Assembly: GCF_024298885.1 (NCBI RefSeq) | Contig: NZ_CP101166.1 | Coordinates: forward strand, 1,364,001 to 1,428,000 | Direction: 5' to 3' | Length of the DNA: 64,000 nucleotides | From: Haloglomus halophilum | GTDB taxonomy: Archaea > Halobacteriota > Halobacteria > Halobacteriales > Haloarculaceae | Shown here: in pieces, positions 304-7,136 of the stretch | How positions within the stretch are numbered: the stretch's first letter is position 1 | Layout of the letters: every line of letters starts with the position of its first letter | Translations under genes and position numbers: made by a program | The notes under the pieces: model-generated | Told to the model about the DNA's origin: nothing | Database searches by the model: none | The model's input: the letters and a program-made list of their open reading frames with translations, nothing else

Positions 304-1851
304 TCAGGAGACGGAGCCGGCCGACTCGGGGGCGTCGGAGCCGTCGCCGGCGTCACCGTCGAGGGCAGCCTCCAGTTGCTCGATTATCTCCCCCGGGTTC
401 GCCCCCTTCTCGATGTAGCCCACCGCGCCGCGTTCCTGGGCCTTCTCGACCATCCGTCCCTTCTGGAAGCCGGAGTAGATGACCACGTCCGCGTCCGGCG
501 CGACATCGCGGATCTCCGGGAGCGCCTCCAGCCCGTCCATCCGCGGCATCGACAGGTCCAGCAGGACCACGTCCGGCTCCGTCTCCGCGGCGACCTCGAT
601 GCCCTCCTCGCCGGTGCCGGCCTCGCCGACCACCTCGTACCGGTCGGTCTTCTCCAGCACCGTCCGGACGAGCGACCGGAGCCCCTCCACGTCGTCGACG
701 AGGATGACCGAGCGGGGCCCGGAATCCGCGTCCGACCCCGACGCGAGCTCCGACTCGGTCGCCGTCTCCGGGCTCGAGTCGGCCACCCGAGCCGGCTCGG
801 CCACCACGCCCGGGGGAACGATGACGTGGAACGACGACCCCTCGCCGGGCTCGGTCTCGACCTCGATGCGACCGCCGAGGTCGTCGACGATACCCTGACA
901 GAGCGCGAGGCCCACACCGGACCCGTCGACCTCCCGGCCGGCGCTGCCCCGCTCGAACAGGTCGAAGAGGGTGTCGACCTCGTCCGGGTCGATGCCGATG
1001 CCGTTGTCCGCGACGGTTATCCGGACGGAGTCGCCGTCCGCTCCTGCCTGCTCGGCGGAGATACGGACGCGGTGTGGGGAGTCGTCCTGGTACTTCAGCG
1101 CGTTCGAGACGAGGTTCTCGAACAGGCGGACGAGCCGATGACGCTGCCCCCGAATCGTCGGGAGCGACCCGATGTCTACCGACGCCGGCTCGTCCCAGCG
1201 GGCCGGGAGCGCGTCGACCACCTCGTCGAGGATGTCGTTCAGGTCGACCGCCTCGCTCTCCGGCCGTTCGGTTTCGTCGAGGCCGACCCGGGCGTACGTC
1301 AGGAGGTCGTCGAGGAGGGTCTCGGCCCGGTCGACGGCACCGTGGGCTCCTTGCAGGTGGTCGAGAGCCTCCTCGTCGAGTTCGTCCTCGACGGCGGGCC
1401 GCAGCAGTTCCAGGTACCCCCGGATGACGCCCAGCGGCTGTTGCAGATCGTGCGAGACGCCGGAGACGAACTGCTGGAGGTCGTCCGAGTGGTCGGCCAG
1501 CCGGTCGGCGGGGACCACGAGAAGCAGGCTCCCATCGCCGGGGGCGTCGCCGAGCGCAACCGCCACCTCGACCGGGTCACCATCGACGGGCGTCGCCCGG
1601 ACGCGCTGGAACGACGCCGTATCGTGGCCGGTGGATGCAGCCTCGGGGCCCGCCGGTCGTTCGGCGGCGTCCGCGATTGGATCGGGCAGCTCTGCGGGGA
1701 ACAGCCTGGCGAGCGGGGTCCCCTGCAGACCGTCGCCGAGCAGGTCGCGTGCGGCGGTGTTCGCGGCGGTGACCTGCCCGTCCGCGACGACGAGCGCGGC
1801 GGTCGGAAGCGACTCGAGTGGGACCGTCGGCGTCTCGTCGGAGCGACTCAC
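304..1851 (-). CDS. PAS-histidine kinase-receiver hybrid sensor protein
   Basis: A 515-residue cytoplasmic hybrid kinase. An N-terminal PAS-like region (about 10-115) is followed by a HisKA domain with the phospho-acceptor His in the motif GVSHDLQQPLG (H134). Next is a HATPase domain with N-box (ENLVSNALKY) and G-boxes (DNGIGID, GSGVGLAL). The C-terminal receiver domain has its phospho-Asp in VLLDLSMPRMDG (about D432). I chose the GTG at 1851 because it overlaps the stop of the upstream copCD gene (GTGA) and the PAS domain starts just after it; the longer open frame upstream is arginine/proline-rich antisense of copCD. The coupling implies co-expression with CopCD, so the kinase may respond to copper or redox state; that is inference. 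No transmembrane segment is visible. Confidence 0.88.
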   Translation of the reverse strand: MSRSDETPTVPLESLPTAALVVADGQVTAANTAARDLLGDGLQGTPLARLFPAELPDPIADAAERPAGPEAASTGHDTASFQRVRATPVDGDPVEVAVALGDAPGDGSLLLVVPADRLADHSDDLQQFVSGVSHDLQQPLGVIRGYLELLRPAVEDELDEEALDHLQGAHGAVDRAETLLDDLLTYARVGLDETERPESEAVDLNDILDEVVDALPARWDEPASVDIGSLPTIRGQRHRLVRLFENLVSNALKYQDDSPHRVRISAEQAGADGDSVRITVADNGIGIDPDEVDTLFDLFERGSAGREVDGSGVGLALCQGIVDDLGGRIEVETEPGEGSSFHVIVPPGVVAEPARVADSSPETATESELASGSDADSGPRSVILVDDVEGLRSLVRTVLEKTDRYEVVGEAGTGEEGIEVAAETEPDVVLLDLSMPRMDGLEALPEIRDVAPDADVVIYSGFQKGRMVEKAQERGAVGYIEKGANPGEIIEQLEAALDGDAGDGSDAPESAGSVS

Positions 1852-3518
1852 GGCTCGGTCACCTCCGGCGTCGGCTCCAGCCGGACCGTCCAGTCGGCGC
1901 TCGCGGCGCCGTGTGGCCCGTGGAGCCGGGCTTCGAGTTCCCACTCCCCGGGGCGGTCGAGGACATCGTCCGGGAGCCGCCACGCGCCGCCATCCCGGAC
2001 CAGCGCGACCGAGTGTGGCGTCGCCGACCCGGGCGGGTCGACCACCACCTCGGGCGTCGGCAGCGAGATGCCGGGGAGCGAGCGGCTGTCGACGCGCAAC
2101 CGGACGGGCGTGTCAGCGTCGGGACGGGGCGGGTCGGGCGTCACCAGCGTGAACCGGTACTCGCCGCGCTCGACCTGCTGCCAGCGGCCACGGTCGAGGT
2201 CGGCGTCGGCCACGTCGTGGGCGGGCCGCGGGTGGGCCGCGAGATGCGCCGCCAGCAGGAGCATCGCCGCGAGTGCCAGCGCCTCCATCGGGACCGACCG
2301 CCGGAGTCGGTCACCCCGGCCCGACGGCAGCACGCGATAGCGGTGGTACACGGCGAAGGCCAGCGGGACGACGATGAGCCCCGCCTTCAGCAGGATGAGC
2401 CCGCCGTACCGGGTCGTCAGCAGGTCGCTCCACCGGAGCAGGTGCGCGTCGGCGTAGACGACACCGGTGACAGCCAGTGCGACGACGGCCCCGAGGCCCC
2501 ACGGCGAGAACCGGCGGGCCGCGGCCAGCGCGTCCGTCCGCGAGGCCCGGAGTGCCGTCAGGCTGACACCGACCAGCCCGCCGAACCAGACCGCCGCCGC
2601 GGACGTGTGGACCAGGCCGACGAGCATGACCCAGGCCCCCTCGATACCCATCGCGCTCGCGCCCGCGAGTCCGTGACTGGCGAACGAATCCGCCAGCAGG
2701 CCGCCGAGCGCCAGCGCCCCCGCACCGGCGAAGGCGCCGCCGTGGAAGTCACCCCCGAGTCCGGGGCGGCGTCGGGCCCGGGGTCGCCAGCGAGCGACGA
2801 CCGCAGCAGCGAGGGCGGCGACGAAGAGCCCGACGCCAGCCACCCGGACGGCGCCGCCAGTCGTTCCGACGGCGGTTCCGAGGTCGCCGTGGCGATAGGC
2901 GAGCGCGGCGACCACGCCCAGCCCGCCGGCGACGGCGAGACCGGCCGTTCCGACCACGGCGGAGCGCCAGGCCCGGGGGACCGTCGGCTCGACGACGGTG
3001 CCGACGAACGCCAGTCCCGCGGTCACCAGCGCGCCGACGAGCAGCCCCCAGCCCGCCAGCGTCTCCGCGAACAGCGCCACGGCACCACCCGGAACCGTAT
3101 CCCACGAGGGCGCCGCGCTATCCGAAGCGCTGGCATCGCCGCCGGCAGCACCGCCGCCGCCACCCGACCCGACGGTGAACGCGAGCGTCCCGGTCGCGGG
3201 ATGGCCGTCCGTGCTCGTCACGCGCCACGCCAACTCGTACGTCCCGGGCGACAGCGACGCGGTCGTCACCCGGACCGTCCGGGCGTCGCCGGTGGTCTCG
3301 ACCGACTCGACGAGATCGGGACCCTGACCGTCGGTCACCGTGACCTCGAGCGTCGCGGCGTCGATGGACTCGCCGAACTCCAGCATGACGACGCTGGCCC
3401 CCTCGGGGAGCGACTCGCCCGGTGCCGGGTCGCTGGACGCGAGGAACGGGTGGGCAGCGACGGGGGTCGCGAGGAGCGCCAGCACCAGCCCCGCCAGCAC
3501 CACCGTCGCGGCTCTCAC
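1848..3518 (-). CDS. CopC-CopD fusion, copper uptake/resistance membrane protein
   Basis: A 556-residue protein beginning with a signal peptide ending in VAA. A CopC domain follows (about 23-120) with His at the predicted mature N-terminus (H23) and a second conserved His in TDGHPATG, the pair that makes the copper-binding brace in CopC proteins. A glycine-rich linker leads to a CopD-like integral membrane domain with about eight hydrophobic helices (motif GLVHTSAAAVWFGGLVG). A last extracellular beta-rich segment (about 440-556) closes the protein. CopC delivers copper and CopD moves it across the membrane; the fused form resembles bacterial YcnJ/PcoCD-type proteins. Its start overlaps the stop of the membrane sensor-like gene upstream, and its stop overlaps the kinase start, so the run looks like one operon. 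Confidence 0.88.
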   Translation of the reverse strand: MRAATVVLAGLVLALLATPVAAHPFLASSDPAPGESLPEGASVVMLEFGESIDAATLEVTVTDGQGPDLVESVETTGDARTVRVTTASLSPGTYELAWRVTSTDGHPATGTLAFTVGSGGGGGAAGGDASASDSAAPSWDTVPGGAVALFAETLAGWGLLVGALVTAGLAFVGTVVEPTVPRAWRSAVVGTAGLAVAGGLGVVAALAYRHGDLGTAVGTTGGAVRVAGVGLFVAALAAAVVARWRPRARRRPGLGGDFHGGAFAGAGALALGGLLADSFASHGLAGASAMGIEGAWVMLVGLVHTSAAAVWFGGLVGVSLTALRASRTDALAAARRFSPWGLGAVVALAVTGVVYADAHLLRWSDLLTTRYGGLILLKAGLIVVPLAFAVYHRYRVLPSGRGDRLRRSVPMEALALAAMLLLAAHLAAHPRPAHDVADADLDRGRWQQVERGEYRFTLVTPDPPRPDADTPVRLRVDSRSLPGISLPTPEVVVDPPGSATPHSVALVRDGGAWRLPDDVLDRPGEWELEARLHGPHGAASADWTVRLEPTPEVTEP

Positions 3519-4138
3519 GACGACCCCCCGCCGTCGGTGGCGTCGGAGAGGTCGGCGGCGTCCGGTCGGTGTATCTCACCCGCCTCGAAGGCCAGTTCCG
3601 AGCCCTCCTCGCCGAGGATCTCCGTGATGAGGTGTTTACTGTCGTCGAGGGTCTCGTCGACGAGTTCGAGCGCCAGTTCGCGGTCGCCCTGGTCGAGCGC
3701 GAGTTTCGCCTGCGAGAGGTTCTGGACGACGCTGTCGTTGATATCCAGTGCCCGCTCCTGGCGCTCGCGCATGTCGTCGAACAGCGCGGAGCCACGCCAG
3801 ATGAGCTTGAACCGGTTCCGCAACGAGAGATACCACACCGCCACGCCCCCCGCGAACACGTTGACCACGACGAGCCGGGGGTCGCCGAACACGACGCGCG
3901 CGGCCGAGCCGAGCGTGAGGTCCGTCCCGGTCACGGGGAGGAGCGCGTGCATCGTGTGCATCCCGTGGCCGGCCGCACAGGTGGCGAAGATGAGCGCGGT
4001 GGCCATCCCGAGGTGGTTGGTGGCCCACTGGCGCCCCTCCAGCAGCCCGCGCAACAGCGTGGCCGCGATGCCGACGTAGCTCACCCACATGAGCGTCGTC
4101 GCCACCACGCCGACGACCCACAGCTCGACACCGAACAT
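3515..4138 (-). CDS. Membrane protein with degenerate HisKA_3-like helix (His replaced by Asn)
   Basis: A 207-residue protein with three or four hydrophobic helices in the first 105 residues. A Cys/His-rich patch lies in the second (TCAAGHGMHTMH; C54, H58, H61, H64). After it comes a long helix reading ALDINDSVVQNLSQAKLAL. That helix matches the HisKA_3 phospho-acceptor pattern (HDxxxQxL) except that the His position is N134. No HATPase domain follows; the chain ends in an acidic tail. It is a paralog of the next gene upstream (4140-4706), which keeps the His. The Cys/His patch and the downstream CopCD make a copper-sensing role possible, but this is inference. Family not recognised by name. 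Confidence 0.8.
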   Translation of the reverse strand: MFGVELWVVGVVATTLMWVSYVGIAATLLRGLLEGRQWATNHLGMATALIFATCAAGHGMHTMHALLPVTGTDLTLGSAARVVFGDPRLVVVNVFAGGVAVWYLSLRNRFKLIWRGSALFDDMRERQERALDINDSVVQNLSQAKLALDQGDRELALELVDETLDDSKHLITEILGEEGSELAFEAGEIHRPDAADLSDATDGGGSS

Positions 4139-4139
4139 C

Positions 4140-4706
4140 TCAGTCGTCCTCCCGGCGGAGCGTTCCCTCGGTCCCCTCCTCGTCGATGAGCTCGGTTATC
4201 ATCGTCTTGGCCTCCTCGAGGGTCTCCTCCAGTGCCTCCTCCCCGAGTTCGTCCTGTTCGGCCTCCAGCGCGAGTTTGGTCCGCGAGAGCCCCTGGACGA
4301 TGTTGTCGTGCACCGCCAGCGCCTGCCGGTTCCGGCTCCGGAGGTCCTCGAACAGCGACGCCCCCCGCGCGAGCGTCGGATACCGCCGGCGCATCGTCCA
4401 GTACCACGCCCCCGCTGACGCCGTCAGGAGGTCGAGCACCACCATGTGCGCCCAGTTGTACTCGACGTGCGAGGCCAGCCCCGGCAGCCTCCCGACGCCC
4501 AGCACCGGCCCCAGCAACTGCACCGTCCGGACCCCGTGGCTCGCCGCACAGGTGAGGAAGATGAGCATCGTCGCAACGCCGAGCGGGTTCCCCGACCACT
4601 GCTCGGTTCGCGTCAGGTCGAGTACCAGCCGGATCGCGATCGCGGCGAACGACACCGTGATGACGGCACTCGCGACCAGCCCGACCTGCCAGAGTTCAGG
4701 AAGCAC
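4140..4706 (-). CDS. Membrane protein with HisKA_3-like DHp helix but no ATPase domain
   Basis: A 188-residue protein with the same layout as its downstream neighbour: N-terminal membrane helices carrying TCAASHG (C53, H57), a tryptophan/arginine-rich cytoplasmic edge, then a helix AVHDNIVQGLSRTKLALEAE. This keeps the HD and Q of a HisKA_3 dimerisation and phosphotransfer helix (H133). A second helix pairs with it (about 153-175). There is no room for a HATPase_c domain: the protein ends about 15 residues later in an acidic tail. It could be phosphorylated in trans or act only as a dimerising sensor. The stop lies 1 bp upstream of the next start codon, so the two are co-translated. First gene of the minus-strand run ending with the hybrid kinase. 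Confidence 0.8.
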   Translation of the reverse strand: MLPELWQVGLVASAVITVSFAAIAIRLVLDLTRTEQWSGNPLGVATMLIFLTCAASHGVRTVQLLGPVLGVGRLPGLASHVEYNWAHMVVLDLLTASAGAWYWTMRRRYPTLARGASLFEDLRSRNRQALAVHDNIVQGLSRTKLALEAEQDELGEEALEETLEEAKTMITELIDEEGTEGTLRREDD

Positions 4707-4844: not shown

Positions 4845-5127
4845 CGGGGACAGTGGCAGGCTCGTCGATGACTTCTGGTGGACCTCTTCGAGTTACCCCA
4901 GCGCGTGACCGTCTACCTCATGGCGTTCCGCCAGCAGCCGACCACGCCCGCGGCGGTAGCGAGCCAGACGCTGTTCACCGAGGCGACCGTCGAGGAGACG
5001 CTCGGCGACTTCGAGATGGAGGGTATCGCCGAGCGTGATGGGGAGGGAGTACGAGGTGGTGTCGCCCGTTGCCGCGATTCGGAAGCGGCAGAACCGGTTG
5101 TGGAATATTCTGAGTCGGGGGTTGTGA
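4845..5127 (+). pseudogene. Frameshifted copy of the winged-helix gene at 1-300
   Basis: Translation in pieces gives a near copy of the gene at 1-300: LFELPQRVTVYLMAFRQQ, then QTLFTEATVEETLGDFEMEG, then after a shift EYEVVSPVAAIRKRQNRLWN and the same LSRGL ending at a TGA (5125-5127). Compared with copy 1, reading frame is lost near 4871-4876 (TTCTGG against CTGCTG) and again near 5041-5050 (GATGGGGAGGGAG). The codons kept between the shifts are still nearly identical, so the decay is recent. It has no good start codon. It sits between the copper/sensor cluster and the low-GC gene that follows. Confidence 0.82.
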
Positions 5128-5259
5128 GAAGATAGCATCGGTGAGTGTGTTGCTGCCCGCATCGTATTTGCCGAATAAGAGCCCTCCATGCAAGAAGATT
5201 AATCTGAAATGAAAACTATCCTGGGCGGAAAAATCCACTTAGAGGGATCTCCTGTCCGG
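5128..5259. other. Low-GC spacer, no gene
   Basis: Base composition drops sharply here compared with the flanking coding DNA. No open frame with haloarchaeal codon use was found. Confidence 0.5.
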
Positions 5260-5272
5260 CGAAAAGTTTAGG
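5260..5272 (+). promoter_or_regulatory. BRE/TATA promoter of the pilin-like gene
   Basis: The sequence CGAAAAGTTTAGG resembles a haloarchaeal BRE plus TATA element. Its centre is about 27 bp upstream of the ATG at 5296, which fits a leaderless transcript starting at that codon and decides the start of the gene. Confidence 0.55.
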
Positions 5273-5295
5273 CCCGTCAGAGAGTGACACCCTCT

Positions 5296-7014
5296 ATGGT
5301 ACTGAGGGGGGACAACAGGGGACAGTCCGAAGTTATAGGGGCGGTATTCGTGTTTGGATTTGTCGTCCTACTGCTGGGACTCAATCAGACAGTTCTCGTT
5401 CCACAGGCGAATGCCGAGATAGAGTTCCAACATAGTAAAGAAGTTGAAGGAGATATGGCGAATTTACGGAATAATATCCAACAGGCGTCTTCATTGGGCG
5501 AAGGGCAATCTACCAGAATTAAGCTTGGCCCGCGATACCCAGCACGCTATCTTGCAATCAATCCAGCATCGCCTAGCGGTAGCCTCAGAACAGTAGACCC
5601 AGGTTCCGACCTCTCACTTAAAAACGTAGAGGCAACTAATCCAGAGACACAGGATTACATAGGAGATAGTAGCACAGGTACTACCAGTCCTGCATTCCCG
5701 ACTCGAGCGCTCATATATCGACCATCTTACAATTTCCATTCCCAGAGTCCCGAGATGGTCATCGAGAATTCGGTGTTCTACCGAAAATTCGAGGACGCTG
5801 ATACCATCACGAGTTCAGAACAGACGTTAGTCAGCGGCAAGAGTATCAATCTAATCGGTATAGAGGGCGACTTTAGGGAAGCCTCCACTGATTCTGTCTC
5901 TGTTGATATCAAGACTCTCAGTGCTTCATCGAACCGGGTATTGGTGCAAGAGTCTGGAACAGGCCGAGTCCAGGTCTCTATTCAGACCCGACTGTCGGAA
6001 GAGAAGTGGGTCGGGACTCTGTTGAGTGATGAGATCGACTCTACTGACAGTGGAGCCACTGAATGCGCCGATTTAGACCCCTCTACGACTAATGATGACG
6101 GCCGCTTCATCGTGGACTGTGACTATACGGGCAGTGGAGAATTCAAACAGCTCACCATCTTCATGGAGAAAGGAACGGAATACTCCGTGAAGTTGACAAA
6201 ACTCGGGATTGGATCGCAGACATCGGACCCAGAGAAGCATTATATTACTGTAGTCAGAGGTGAGCAGACCTCTGTCCCGGAGGGAGGTACGGGTACCTTC
6301 ACTGTTGAGGCCAGGGATAAATTCAATAACCCAGTCAGTGGAGTTTCGCTTGATGCCGGAGCCGAATCATCAGATGTGACTGTATCGGCCGTAGGGAATG
6401 ATATCACTGACGAGCAAGGACAGGTGACGTTCCTTATCGAGTCTACCAGTGATATCAGCGGCATCAGCCAGGATCCGAAGTTTGCTGATGTTACATTCGG
6501 TAGCAGTACACCCGGAGACCCAGGATTTACCCCAGGGAAGAAGGAGAACGCAGAGGTCGAGTTCAAAGTGCAGAACACAGATAGTAGTGGCCTCGGGCCG
6601 ACGAGTCCATTTACTATTAATCCAGCCGGTTCCGGGACTGTATTTCTCAACGGCACAGATGCTACCGGGAAATGCCCCAATACAAAGGGAACACCACTAA
6701 CAGTTACATTCAATAATTCTGGATCGCAACCCCGAGAGTGGGAAAGAGGACGGATTAGTTTCTGGAGCGGTAGCCAAAACAAGAACAACCCAGTTTCCGT
6801 ATTTCTTGAGGATAATTCGAGCGATGGTTTAGTTGTTACTAAGCCTTTTGAAACGCTTCAATCCAATCCGACCTTCGACGGGAATGAAGAAACACCTGTC
6901 CTCTTCTGTATCGATAGCTCGAAGGGAGGGGGAACCCTTGGTGGAGACTTCTTTATTCTACAGGTTGAATATGGAAATGGTCCGATAAATACGTATTTCG
7001 TCTATGTACCATGA
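5296..7014 (+). CDS. Archaeal pilin-like secreted/surface protein
   Basis: A 572-residue protein beginning MVLRGDNRGQSEVIGAVFVF. The RGQSEVIG-hydrophobic helix is the N-terminal hallmark of haloarchaeal type IV pilin-like proteins, with cleavage expected before QSE. After one membrane helix the chain is a long extracytoplasmic beta-rich region, including an Ig-like segment (about 320-395: VPEGGTGTFTVEARDKFNNP) and cysteines that could pair. I took the ATG at 5296 rather than the GTG at 5284 because of the TATA spacing. Codon use and GC content are far lower than in the neighbours (many A/T third positions), a sign of transfer, and the gene abuts the 3' end of tRNA-Pro. Ligand or role unknown; surface attachment or contact is a guess. 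Confidence 0.82.
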   Translation: MVLRGDNRGQSEVIGAVFVFGFVVLLLGLNQTVLVPQANAEIEFQHSKEVEGDMANLRNNIQQASSLGEGQSTRIKLGPRYPARYLAINPASPSGSLRTVDPGSDLSLKNVEATNPETQDYIGDSSTGTTSPAFPTRALIYRPSYNFHSQSPEMVIENSVFYRKFEDADTITSSEQTLVSGKSINLIGIEGDFREASTDSVSVDIKTLSASSNRVLVQESGTGRVQVSIQTRLSEEKWVGTLLSDEIDSTDSGATECADLDPSTTNDDGRFIVDCDYTGSGEFKQLTIFMEKGTEYSVKLTKLGIGSQTSDPEKHYITVVRGEQTSVPEGGTGTFTVEARDKFNNPVSGVSLDAGAESSDVTVSAVGNDITDEQGQVTFLIESTSDISGISQDPKFADVTFGSSTPGDPGFTPGKKENAEVEFKVQNTDSSGLGPTSPFTINPAGSGTVFLNGTDATGKCPNTKGTPLTVTFNNSGSQPREWERGRISFWSGSQNKNNPVSVFLEDNSSDGLVVTKPFETLQSNPTFDGNEETPVLFCIDSSKGGGTLGGDFFILQVEYGNGPINTYFVYVP

Positions 7015-7063
7015 GGTAATTGGAGGCACAAATAAGTTATCAAGAGAAGTGATATCGTGGAAG

Positions 7064-7136
7064 TGGGCCGGCCCGGATTTGAACCGAGGTACCGAGGACC
7101 CGATCCTCGAAGGATACCAAGCTACCCCACCGGCCC
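7064..7136 (-). tRNA. tRNA-Pro (anticodon CGG)
   Basis: On the minus strand the acceptor arms GGGCCGG and CCGGCCC pair perfectly, followed by discriminator A. The anticodon stem is CGAGG/CCTCG with loop ATCGGGT, giving anticodon CGG. The T arm is CTCGG-TTCAAAT-CCGGG. No intron is present. CCA is not encoded. Its 3' end faces the low-GC pilin-like gene. Confidence 0.93.

Follow-up and report, generated by a model that had tools for sequence, protein, structure and literature searches.

What can two small membrane proteins do that carry the phosphotransfer-type helix of a histidine kinase and no ATPase domain to go with it? The question is raised by a locus of the haloarchaeon Haloglomus halophilum (assembly GCF_024298885.1, contig NZ_CP101166.1, positions 1,364,001 to 1,428,000; this whole stretch of 64,000 nucleotides is called the window below, and positions are counted from its first letter), in which four minus-strand genes spanning 4706 to 304 encode a 188-amino-acid sensor, a 207-amino-acid sensor, a CopC-CopD fusion and a hybrid histidine kinase. 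With moderate confidence, we propose that the two sensors and their bacterial homologs are kinase-dead membrane receptors which dock on, and gate, the receiver/kinase encoded beside them. The features of the operon on which the argument draws are as follows.

4140 to 4706, minus strand: upstream membrane sensor, 188 amino acids from a GTG start; three transmembrane helices with Cys53-x3-His57, then a HisKA_3-like helix pair with His133.
4536 to 4550, minus strand: Cys/His patch of the upstream copy, Cys53-Ala-Ala-Ser-His57, aligned with Cys65/His69 of ethylene receptors.
4170 to 4379, minus strand: helix pair of the upstream copy, residues 110-179, with the His133 codon (CAC) at 4308-4310.
3515 to 4138, minus strand: downstream membrane sensor, 207 amino acids; three transmembrane helices with Cys54-x3-His58 (and His61), then a HisKA_3-like helix pair with Asn134.
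3965 to 3979, minus strand: Cys/His patch of the downstream copy, Cys54-Ala-Ala-Gly-His58.
3614 to 3808, minus strand: helix pair of the downstream copy, residues 111-175, with the Asn134 codon (AAC) at 3737-3739.
1848 to 3518, minus strand: CopC-CopD fusion, 556 amino acids, with a GTGA overlap with the downstream sensor gene.
304 to 1851, minus strand: PAS-HisKA-HATPase-REC hybrid kinase, 515 amino acids, from a GTG overlapping the copCD stop codon.
349 to 723, minus strand: receiver (REC) domain of the hybrid kinase, of the subfamily of receivers partnered with the sensor's bacterial homologs.

A preliminary description of this DNA, made from its letters, had claimed two tandem genes for proteins with N-terminal membrane helices, a Cys/His patch and a HisKA_3-like helix with His in the upstream and Asn in the downstream copy, no ATPase domain in either, and translational coupling to a CopC-CopD fusion and a PAS-kinase-receiver protein; all of this was confirmed. 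The two copies are 42% identical, neither matches any Pfam family above its cut-off, and H133 and N134 occupy the acceptor position of HisKA_3, which matches the upstream copy only (17.4 bits, expectation value (E) 0.0068, cut-off 24). In a Pfam scan from which most matches above about 0.1 had been dropped, no HisKA_3 was listed at E<=10 for the downstream copy and no HATPase for either sensor. The NCBIfam model MacS gave a weak match to the upstream copy (21 bits, cut-off 300). The sensor-sensor junction reads TGA-G-ATG, and the sensor/copCD and copCD/kinase junctions are GTGA overlaps, the second of which makes 1851 (515 amino acids) rather than 1983 the likely start of the kinase; in a second species of the genus the start lies at the same place. 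CopC (E 3e-20) and CopD (E 4e-17) are found over their cut-offs on the fusion protein, as are HisKA (E 6e-15), HATPase_c (E 2e-27) and Response_reg (E 3e-24) on the kinase, the PAS match of which falls just under the cut-off.

AlphaFold models of both sensors, calculated as monomers from four-sequence input, contain three membrane helices (residues 3-33, 41-69 and 86-108 upstream; 2-34, 42-70 and 87-109 downstream) and a hairpin (110-148 with 152-179, and 111-149 with 153-175), at a mean predicted local distance difference test score (pLDDT) of 66.8 and 69.2, respectively. Within the hairpin the pLDDT is 77-87 around the turn and 52-58 towards the ends, and the models are compatible with the bundle of a dimerization and histidine phosphotransfer (DHp) domain. 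Fold searches with the upstream model returned generic helical matches only and no specific relative.

A first contig scan of genomes with the full-length sensor pair gave no match. When species genomes of bacteria and archaea were searched with the C-terminal half, full-length homologs came up in one metagenome-assembled genome each of Chloroflexota (51% identity) and Actinomycetota (46%), both figures being over the C-terminal half only. Matches were then found in 27 of 345 genomes of the class Actinomycetes and 2 of 201 of the phylum Chloroflexota, the two starting genomes included, and are of three kinds: standalone sensors like those of the window (10 loci in 9 genomes, one of them, L155, split by a frame break), membrane domains fused to a kinase (16 loci fetched, with one further partial copy in one genome left out) and helix modules that lack the membrane domain (7 loci, in several of which the module stands behind PAS or other sensor parts). 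The split sensor (L155:971-1526) is the second copy of the Chloroflexota genome, and its two overlapping frames lie directly before an intact REC-PAS-kinase gene.

At all 10 bacterial standalone loci the next gene opens with a receiver, overlapping the sensor gene or lying a few bases away where the start can be fixed, and in seven it encodes a REC-(PAS)-HisKA-HATPase protein. The other three consist of a receiver alone (L132), a receiver with no further Pfam domain in its open reading frame (L130) and a receiver in a long open reading frame whose following parts look, by eye, like PAS-GGDEF (L088). The module is itself fused to a receiver at L150, L151, L153, L154 and L167; a fused or adjacent receiver was found at five of the seven loci without the membrane domain, and the 11 strong matches of a module profile described below have one fused or within about 1.5 kb in nine cases (none for L162 and L168). 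The receiver of the window kinase scores 85-124 bits against the 15 bacterial receivers that are joined to the module or lie beside it and no more than 50 bits, with one exception at 79, against other receivers in the same fetched loci; the aligned receivers retain the phospho-acceptor Asp. The sensor thus goes hand in hand with this receiver subfamily, and in the archaeal kinase the matching receiver stands at the opposite end of the chain from that in the bacterial partner kinases. The earlier suggestion of a split signalling system, coupled to a co-encoded kinase/receiver, is supported.

It might be supposed that the sensors are decayed histidine kinases retained by chance and without a signalling role, as the lack of an ATPase domain and the sub-threshold HisKA_3 score would allow. 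We regard this as very improbable: the same truncated architecture, with its fixed downstream receiver, occurs in two bacterial phyla, and between the two species of the genus the ratios of nonsynonymous to synonymous substitution rates (dN/dS) of the two sensor genes are 0.23 and 0.14. Recurrence in a second species, these ratios and the full-length homologs in Actinomycetota and Chloroflexota together argue that the genes are not there by chance.

The helix module was modelled from eight bacterial sequences. The model gives 76.8 and 76.2 bits with the two copies of the window and also picks, in register, two true HisKA_3-HATPase_c kinases (HisKA_3 at 63.5 and 68.8 bits, with HATPase_c), whose His falls over the Asn of the module. 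HisKA_3 (PF07730) ancestry of the helix pair is supported by this comparison, the sensors differing from that DHp domain in having no HATPase, in scoring below its cut-off and in their acceptor residue, which is Asn in the downstream copy, in 10/10 bacterial standalone homologs and in 7/7 module loci without the membrane domain. A module profile search of 197 Actinomycetes genomes, 22 of which gave 23 matches, agrees: all 11 strong matches (E 2.5e-14 or better, nine of them loci already counted) carry Asn, while the 12 weak ones comprise the two true kinases with His, eight with another residue (Gln in five, Ser, Ile and Leu in one each) and two (L169 and L174) with an unreadable motif. Small or unnamed Actinomycetes open reading frames with a divergent module, [Q/S/I/L]-D-D-[LV]-V-Q and no His, were found at L170-L173, L175, L176, L179 and L180, with no receiver match within about 1.5 kb.

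Among readable non-kinases, His is confined to the upstream haloarchaeal copy, in both species. By these counts the family as a rule has Asn, and it is the upstream copy that departs from the rule with its His; the downstream copy is accordingly not the inactive counterpart of an active protein. The preliminary description had considered heterodimers of active and dead subunits; Asn being the norm, this was dropped as the leading view.

The membrane domain was aligned for 29 sequences, 13 standalone (four of them haloarchaeal) and 16 kinase-fused. None of them deviates at the Cys of the patch or at the His at +4; an extra His at +7 is present in 27, with Arg in both upstream haloarchaeal copies. 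The same stretch is matched in 30/30 family sequences by ETR1_N (Pfam PF25487, the ethylene receptor N-terminus; gathering cut-off 27 bits), over a range of 14.4-25.7 bits: 17.5-25.7 bits (E down to 1.5e-5) at 10/10 bacterial standalone loci, 15.5-25.3 bits in 16/16 kinase-fused proteins and 14.4-17.1 bits in 4/4 haloarchaeal ones, with 17.1 bits for the upstream and 15.3 bits for the downstream sensor of the window. Sub-threshold ETR1_N matches, no proof alone, also occur in 45 of 391 genomes of the haloarchaeal class, and since they reach 20.4 bits, the upper scores of the family are informative and those of the haloarchaeal sensors alone are not.

In a profile-profile comparison of the 29 domains with 10 predicted bacterial ethylene-binding domains, taken from plasmid records, a match of 92% probability (E 5.9e-7) was obtained, with Cys on Cys and His on His. 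The kinase-fused domains alone gave 93% and the bacterial standalone domains alone 62.5%, single CopD pieces stayed below 1%, and the best of 200 column shuffles reached 11%, a lenient null because shuffling breaks helices; circular shifts provided no useful null. A model of the 10 ethylene-binding domains did not match the window sensors at E<=0.05. Kinship of the membrane domain with ethylene receptors is likely, and is carried mainly by the register of the metal site.

The sensors thus share with ETR1, SynEtr1 and AzoEtr1 three membrane helices, a helix-2 Cys-x3-His in the same register and attached two-component parts; they differ from these receptors in that the standalone form has neither GAF nor kinase on the same chain. 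The kinase-fused proteins of Actinomycetota (16 loci, one reached through the Chloroflexota search) have the same membrane domain, with Cys and His in 16/16, and differ in carrying the kinase parts on their own chain (kinase match in 16/16, receiver match in 13/16). At the position of Asp25, located by a fixed distance from the Cys, Asn is found in 25/25 bacterial and Ser or Thr in 4/4 haloarchaeal sequences. In helix 1, Ile35 is retained in 29/29 and Tyr32 is Tyr in 27/29, with Phe in the upstream haloarchaeal copy, while other residues stand in for Pro36 and Ile62 in 29/29; we take Tyr32, Ile35, Pro36 and Ile62 to be the names of these residues in the ethylene-binding domain.

AzoEtr1, too, has an overlapping downstream receiver gene according to PMC11819568, where seven residues are given as required in the ethylene-binding domain. 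The essential copper site of ETR1 is reported to consist of Asp25, Cys65 and His69 (PMC12643061), and Cys65 and His69 are named as the Cu(I) ligands of the ethylene receptor in PMC13012798. According to the latter source, the receptor still functions when a conserved, unnumbered Asp in its membrane domain is exchanged for Asn, but its ethylene affinity is reduced about 100-fold; we take this residue to be Asp25. Mutation of C65 or D25 of ETR1 is stated to abolish ethylene binding (PMC11819568), and different substitutions may account for the two outcomes. The copper-type Cys/His site of the earlier account is supported; copper binding by the sensor membrane domain is plausible, and ethylene binding is doubtful.

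Several observations weigh against kinase-dead receptors of this kind, or against parts of that proposal. His133 of the upstream copy fits badly with a purely non-phosphorylated module, and two of the seven module loci without the membrane domain (L149 and L152) have no adjacent receiver. As regards ethylene receptors, the ETR1_N cut-off of 27 bits is reached by 0/30 family sequences, the best having 25.7; in the profile comparison the four haloarchaeal domains alone give only 55%, masking of the Cys and His lowers the match to 48%, and an unrelated VanZ-like membrane family reaches 47.5% against the same ethylene-binding profile, a stricter control than shuffling. The kinship therefore rests largely on the Cys-x3-His register. 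As regards copper, single-sequence queries covering a few kb on each side found CopC/CopD near 0/10 bacterial standalone loci; the only sensors with these genes as neighbours were those of two haloarchaea from a single genus. CopD is encoded in seven of the nine bacterial genomes with a standalone sensor: two have it on the contig of the sensor, at distances of 1.7 and 2.4 Mb, and the remaining ones, which are draft genomes, on another contig. Of the linkage that the preliminary description had expected for homologs, that with kinases and receivers stood and that with copper genes did not, so that the case for a copper signal is made by the operon of the archaeon and by the Cys/His site.

Spo0B is a soluble phosphotransferase with a DHp-type hairpin that bears a His and with a vestigial ATPase-like domain, and it offers a different explanation of His133. 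If this residue were a working phospho-acceptor, the upstream copy would be a Spo0B-like phosphotransferase fed by the hybrid kinase or its receiver, with the Asn copy as its regulatory partner, an arrangement that comes near the one in the preliminary description. The likeness lies in the use of a DHp-type hairpin without kinase activity of its own, the His-Asp pair stands in the right HisKA_3 register, kinase and receiver are present in the operon, and His133 is found in both species, between which the upstream helix pair has two synonymous and no nonsynonymous changes, numbers too small for a judgement on His133 alone. The sensors, however, are membrane-anchored, mostly carry Asn and have no C-terminal domain after the hairpin, and the Asn of all bacterial homologs and other module carriers indicates that the module works without His. 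Moreover, Asn becomes His by a single base change, and only two closely related genomes carry the His.

Whether this His was gained or kept bears on the same question. It could be the ancestral HisKA_3 state, retained; a full-length tree unites the two haloarchaeal copies (support 87/96, long branches), which favours duplication within the archaeal lineage and a His that is derived, whereas a tree of the 72-column module does not unite them, so that this history is favoured by one tree only. Altogether a phosphotransferase role seems unlikely to us.

The signal itself may also be something other than copper. The Cys/His site could bind haem or another metal, or sense redox state, oxygen or a hydrocarbon, with copCD a mere operon neighbour and not a target, and both the missing copper genes beside the bacterial homologs and the conserved His at +7, which could permit other ligands, are in keeping with this; ethylene receptors, too, are described as using copper to sense another molecule (PMC13012798). 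The register shared with the ethylene-receptor Cu(I) site and the coupling of copCD to the sensors in both archaeal genomes count against such a ligand, which we consider rather improbable, and Cu(I) sensing is judged likely from the operon and the site. For YcnJ, a CopC-CopD protein of Bacillus subtilis, a role in copper import is described (PMC13344008).

For kinase-dead receptors gating a receiver, the following course of events can be envisaged. Homology suggests that the three-helix domain would hold Cu(I) at the Cys-x3-His of helix 2 and read copper or a small copper ligand; dimers would relay the change to the helix pair, which comes from the DHp domain of HisKA_3 and in this family as a rule has no acceptor His. 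Judging by gene order, fusions and co-inheritance, the helix pair would then dock on the dedicated receiver of the PAS-HisKA-HATPase-REC kinase and gate it, and the output, if the operon is a guide, may adjust the handling of copper by way of CopCD or genes related to it.

The finding goes beyond two odd genes, to a family of sensors in which the Cys/His site resembles that of ethylene receptors and a DHp module without His is firmly associated with a receiver. Such a recurrent kinase-dead module, tied to one receiver subfamily, makes a directly testable case of a receiver being steered without phosphorylation by the sensor. Likely relatives of the ethylene-receptor copper domain would exist in Actinomycetota, Chloroflexota and an archaeon, and the bacterial ones naturally have Asn at the Asp25 position, for which the affinity loss cited above from PMC13012798 is a point of comparison. 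More tentatively, and with doubt prevailing, one may see here a class of receptors whose copper domain, like that of ethylene receptors, sends its signal by way of a DHp hairpin that has no His and docks on a receiver subfamily of its own. In this haloarchaeon the class would have been recruited to copper homeostasis, and the His copy may have become a membrane-bound phosphotransferase; if this is true, sensing would be separated from phosphate chemistry.

Clear haloarchaeal relatives, sought by tblastn and with a profile of the two copies, occur in two of four genomes of the genus (the window genome and one other species), in two of 59 related genomes, the own genome included, and among the 391 genomes of the class only in the own genome. 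Matches at E<=0.1 were obtained in 28 of those 391, all weak (E 0.0016 or worse) but for the own genome, and the fetched weak-match loci contained no comparable Cys-x3-His protein, the motif of L033 sitting in a transporter-like open reading frame of 437 amino acids. The CopCD protein of the window had a match in one of nine other haloarchaeal genomes searched, that of the same second species. Plasmids, queried with proteins of the window and with two of the bacterial pieces, gave nothing of use, one match overlapping an annotated gene on the opposite strand. The sensor family is probably rare and horizontally spread, the module having probably been acquired from Actinomycetota- or Chloroflexota-like bacteria. 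No description of the family was found in the literature, judging by titles and the openings of abstracts.

The archaeal operon is flanked by the two copies of a direct repeat, which are 88% and 78% identical over two pieces and contain a winged-helix-like open reading frame.

42 to 301, no strand assigned: left copy of the repeat, with a small open reading frame resembling a winged helix-turn-helix protein at 76-300 on the plus strand.
4871 to 5128, no strand assigned: right copy of the repeat.

Both flanks are also found in the second species, and two other members of the genus, one of them 81% complete, are without the sensors and this CopCD, so that the operon looks like an accessory island.

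Chaperone genes lie near several of the bacterial sensor loci, namely ClpB at L133 (by Pfam) and ClpB- or DnaJ-like genes at L128, L129 and L130 (by eye). Small membrane-like proteins without a Pfam match at E<=0.01 are encoded directly upstream of the sensor gene at L129 (4368-5165) and L131 (5967-6680). In the window, the guanine and cytosine content is 0.504 over 4900-7050, compared with 0.696 for the whole, and this low stretch (4900-7136) holds an open reading frame of 576 amino acids with a hydrophobic N-terminus (5284-7014, plus strand) beside a tRNA-Pro gene (7063-7136, minus strand).

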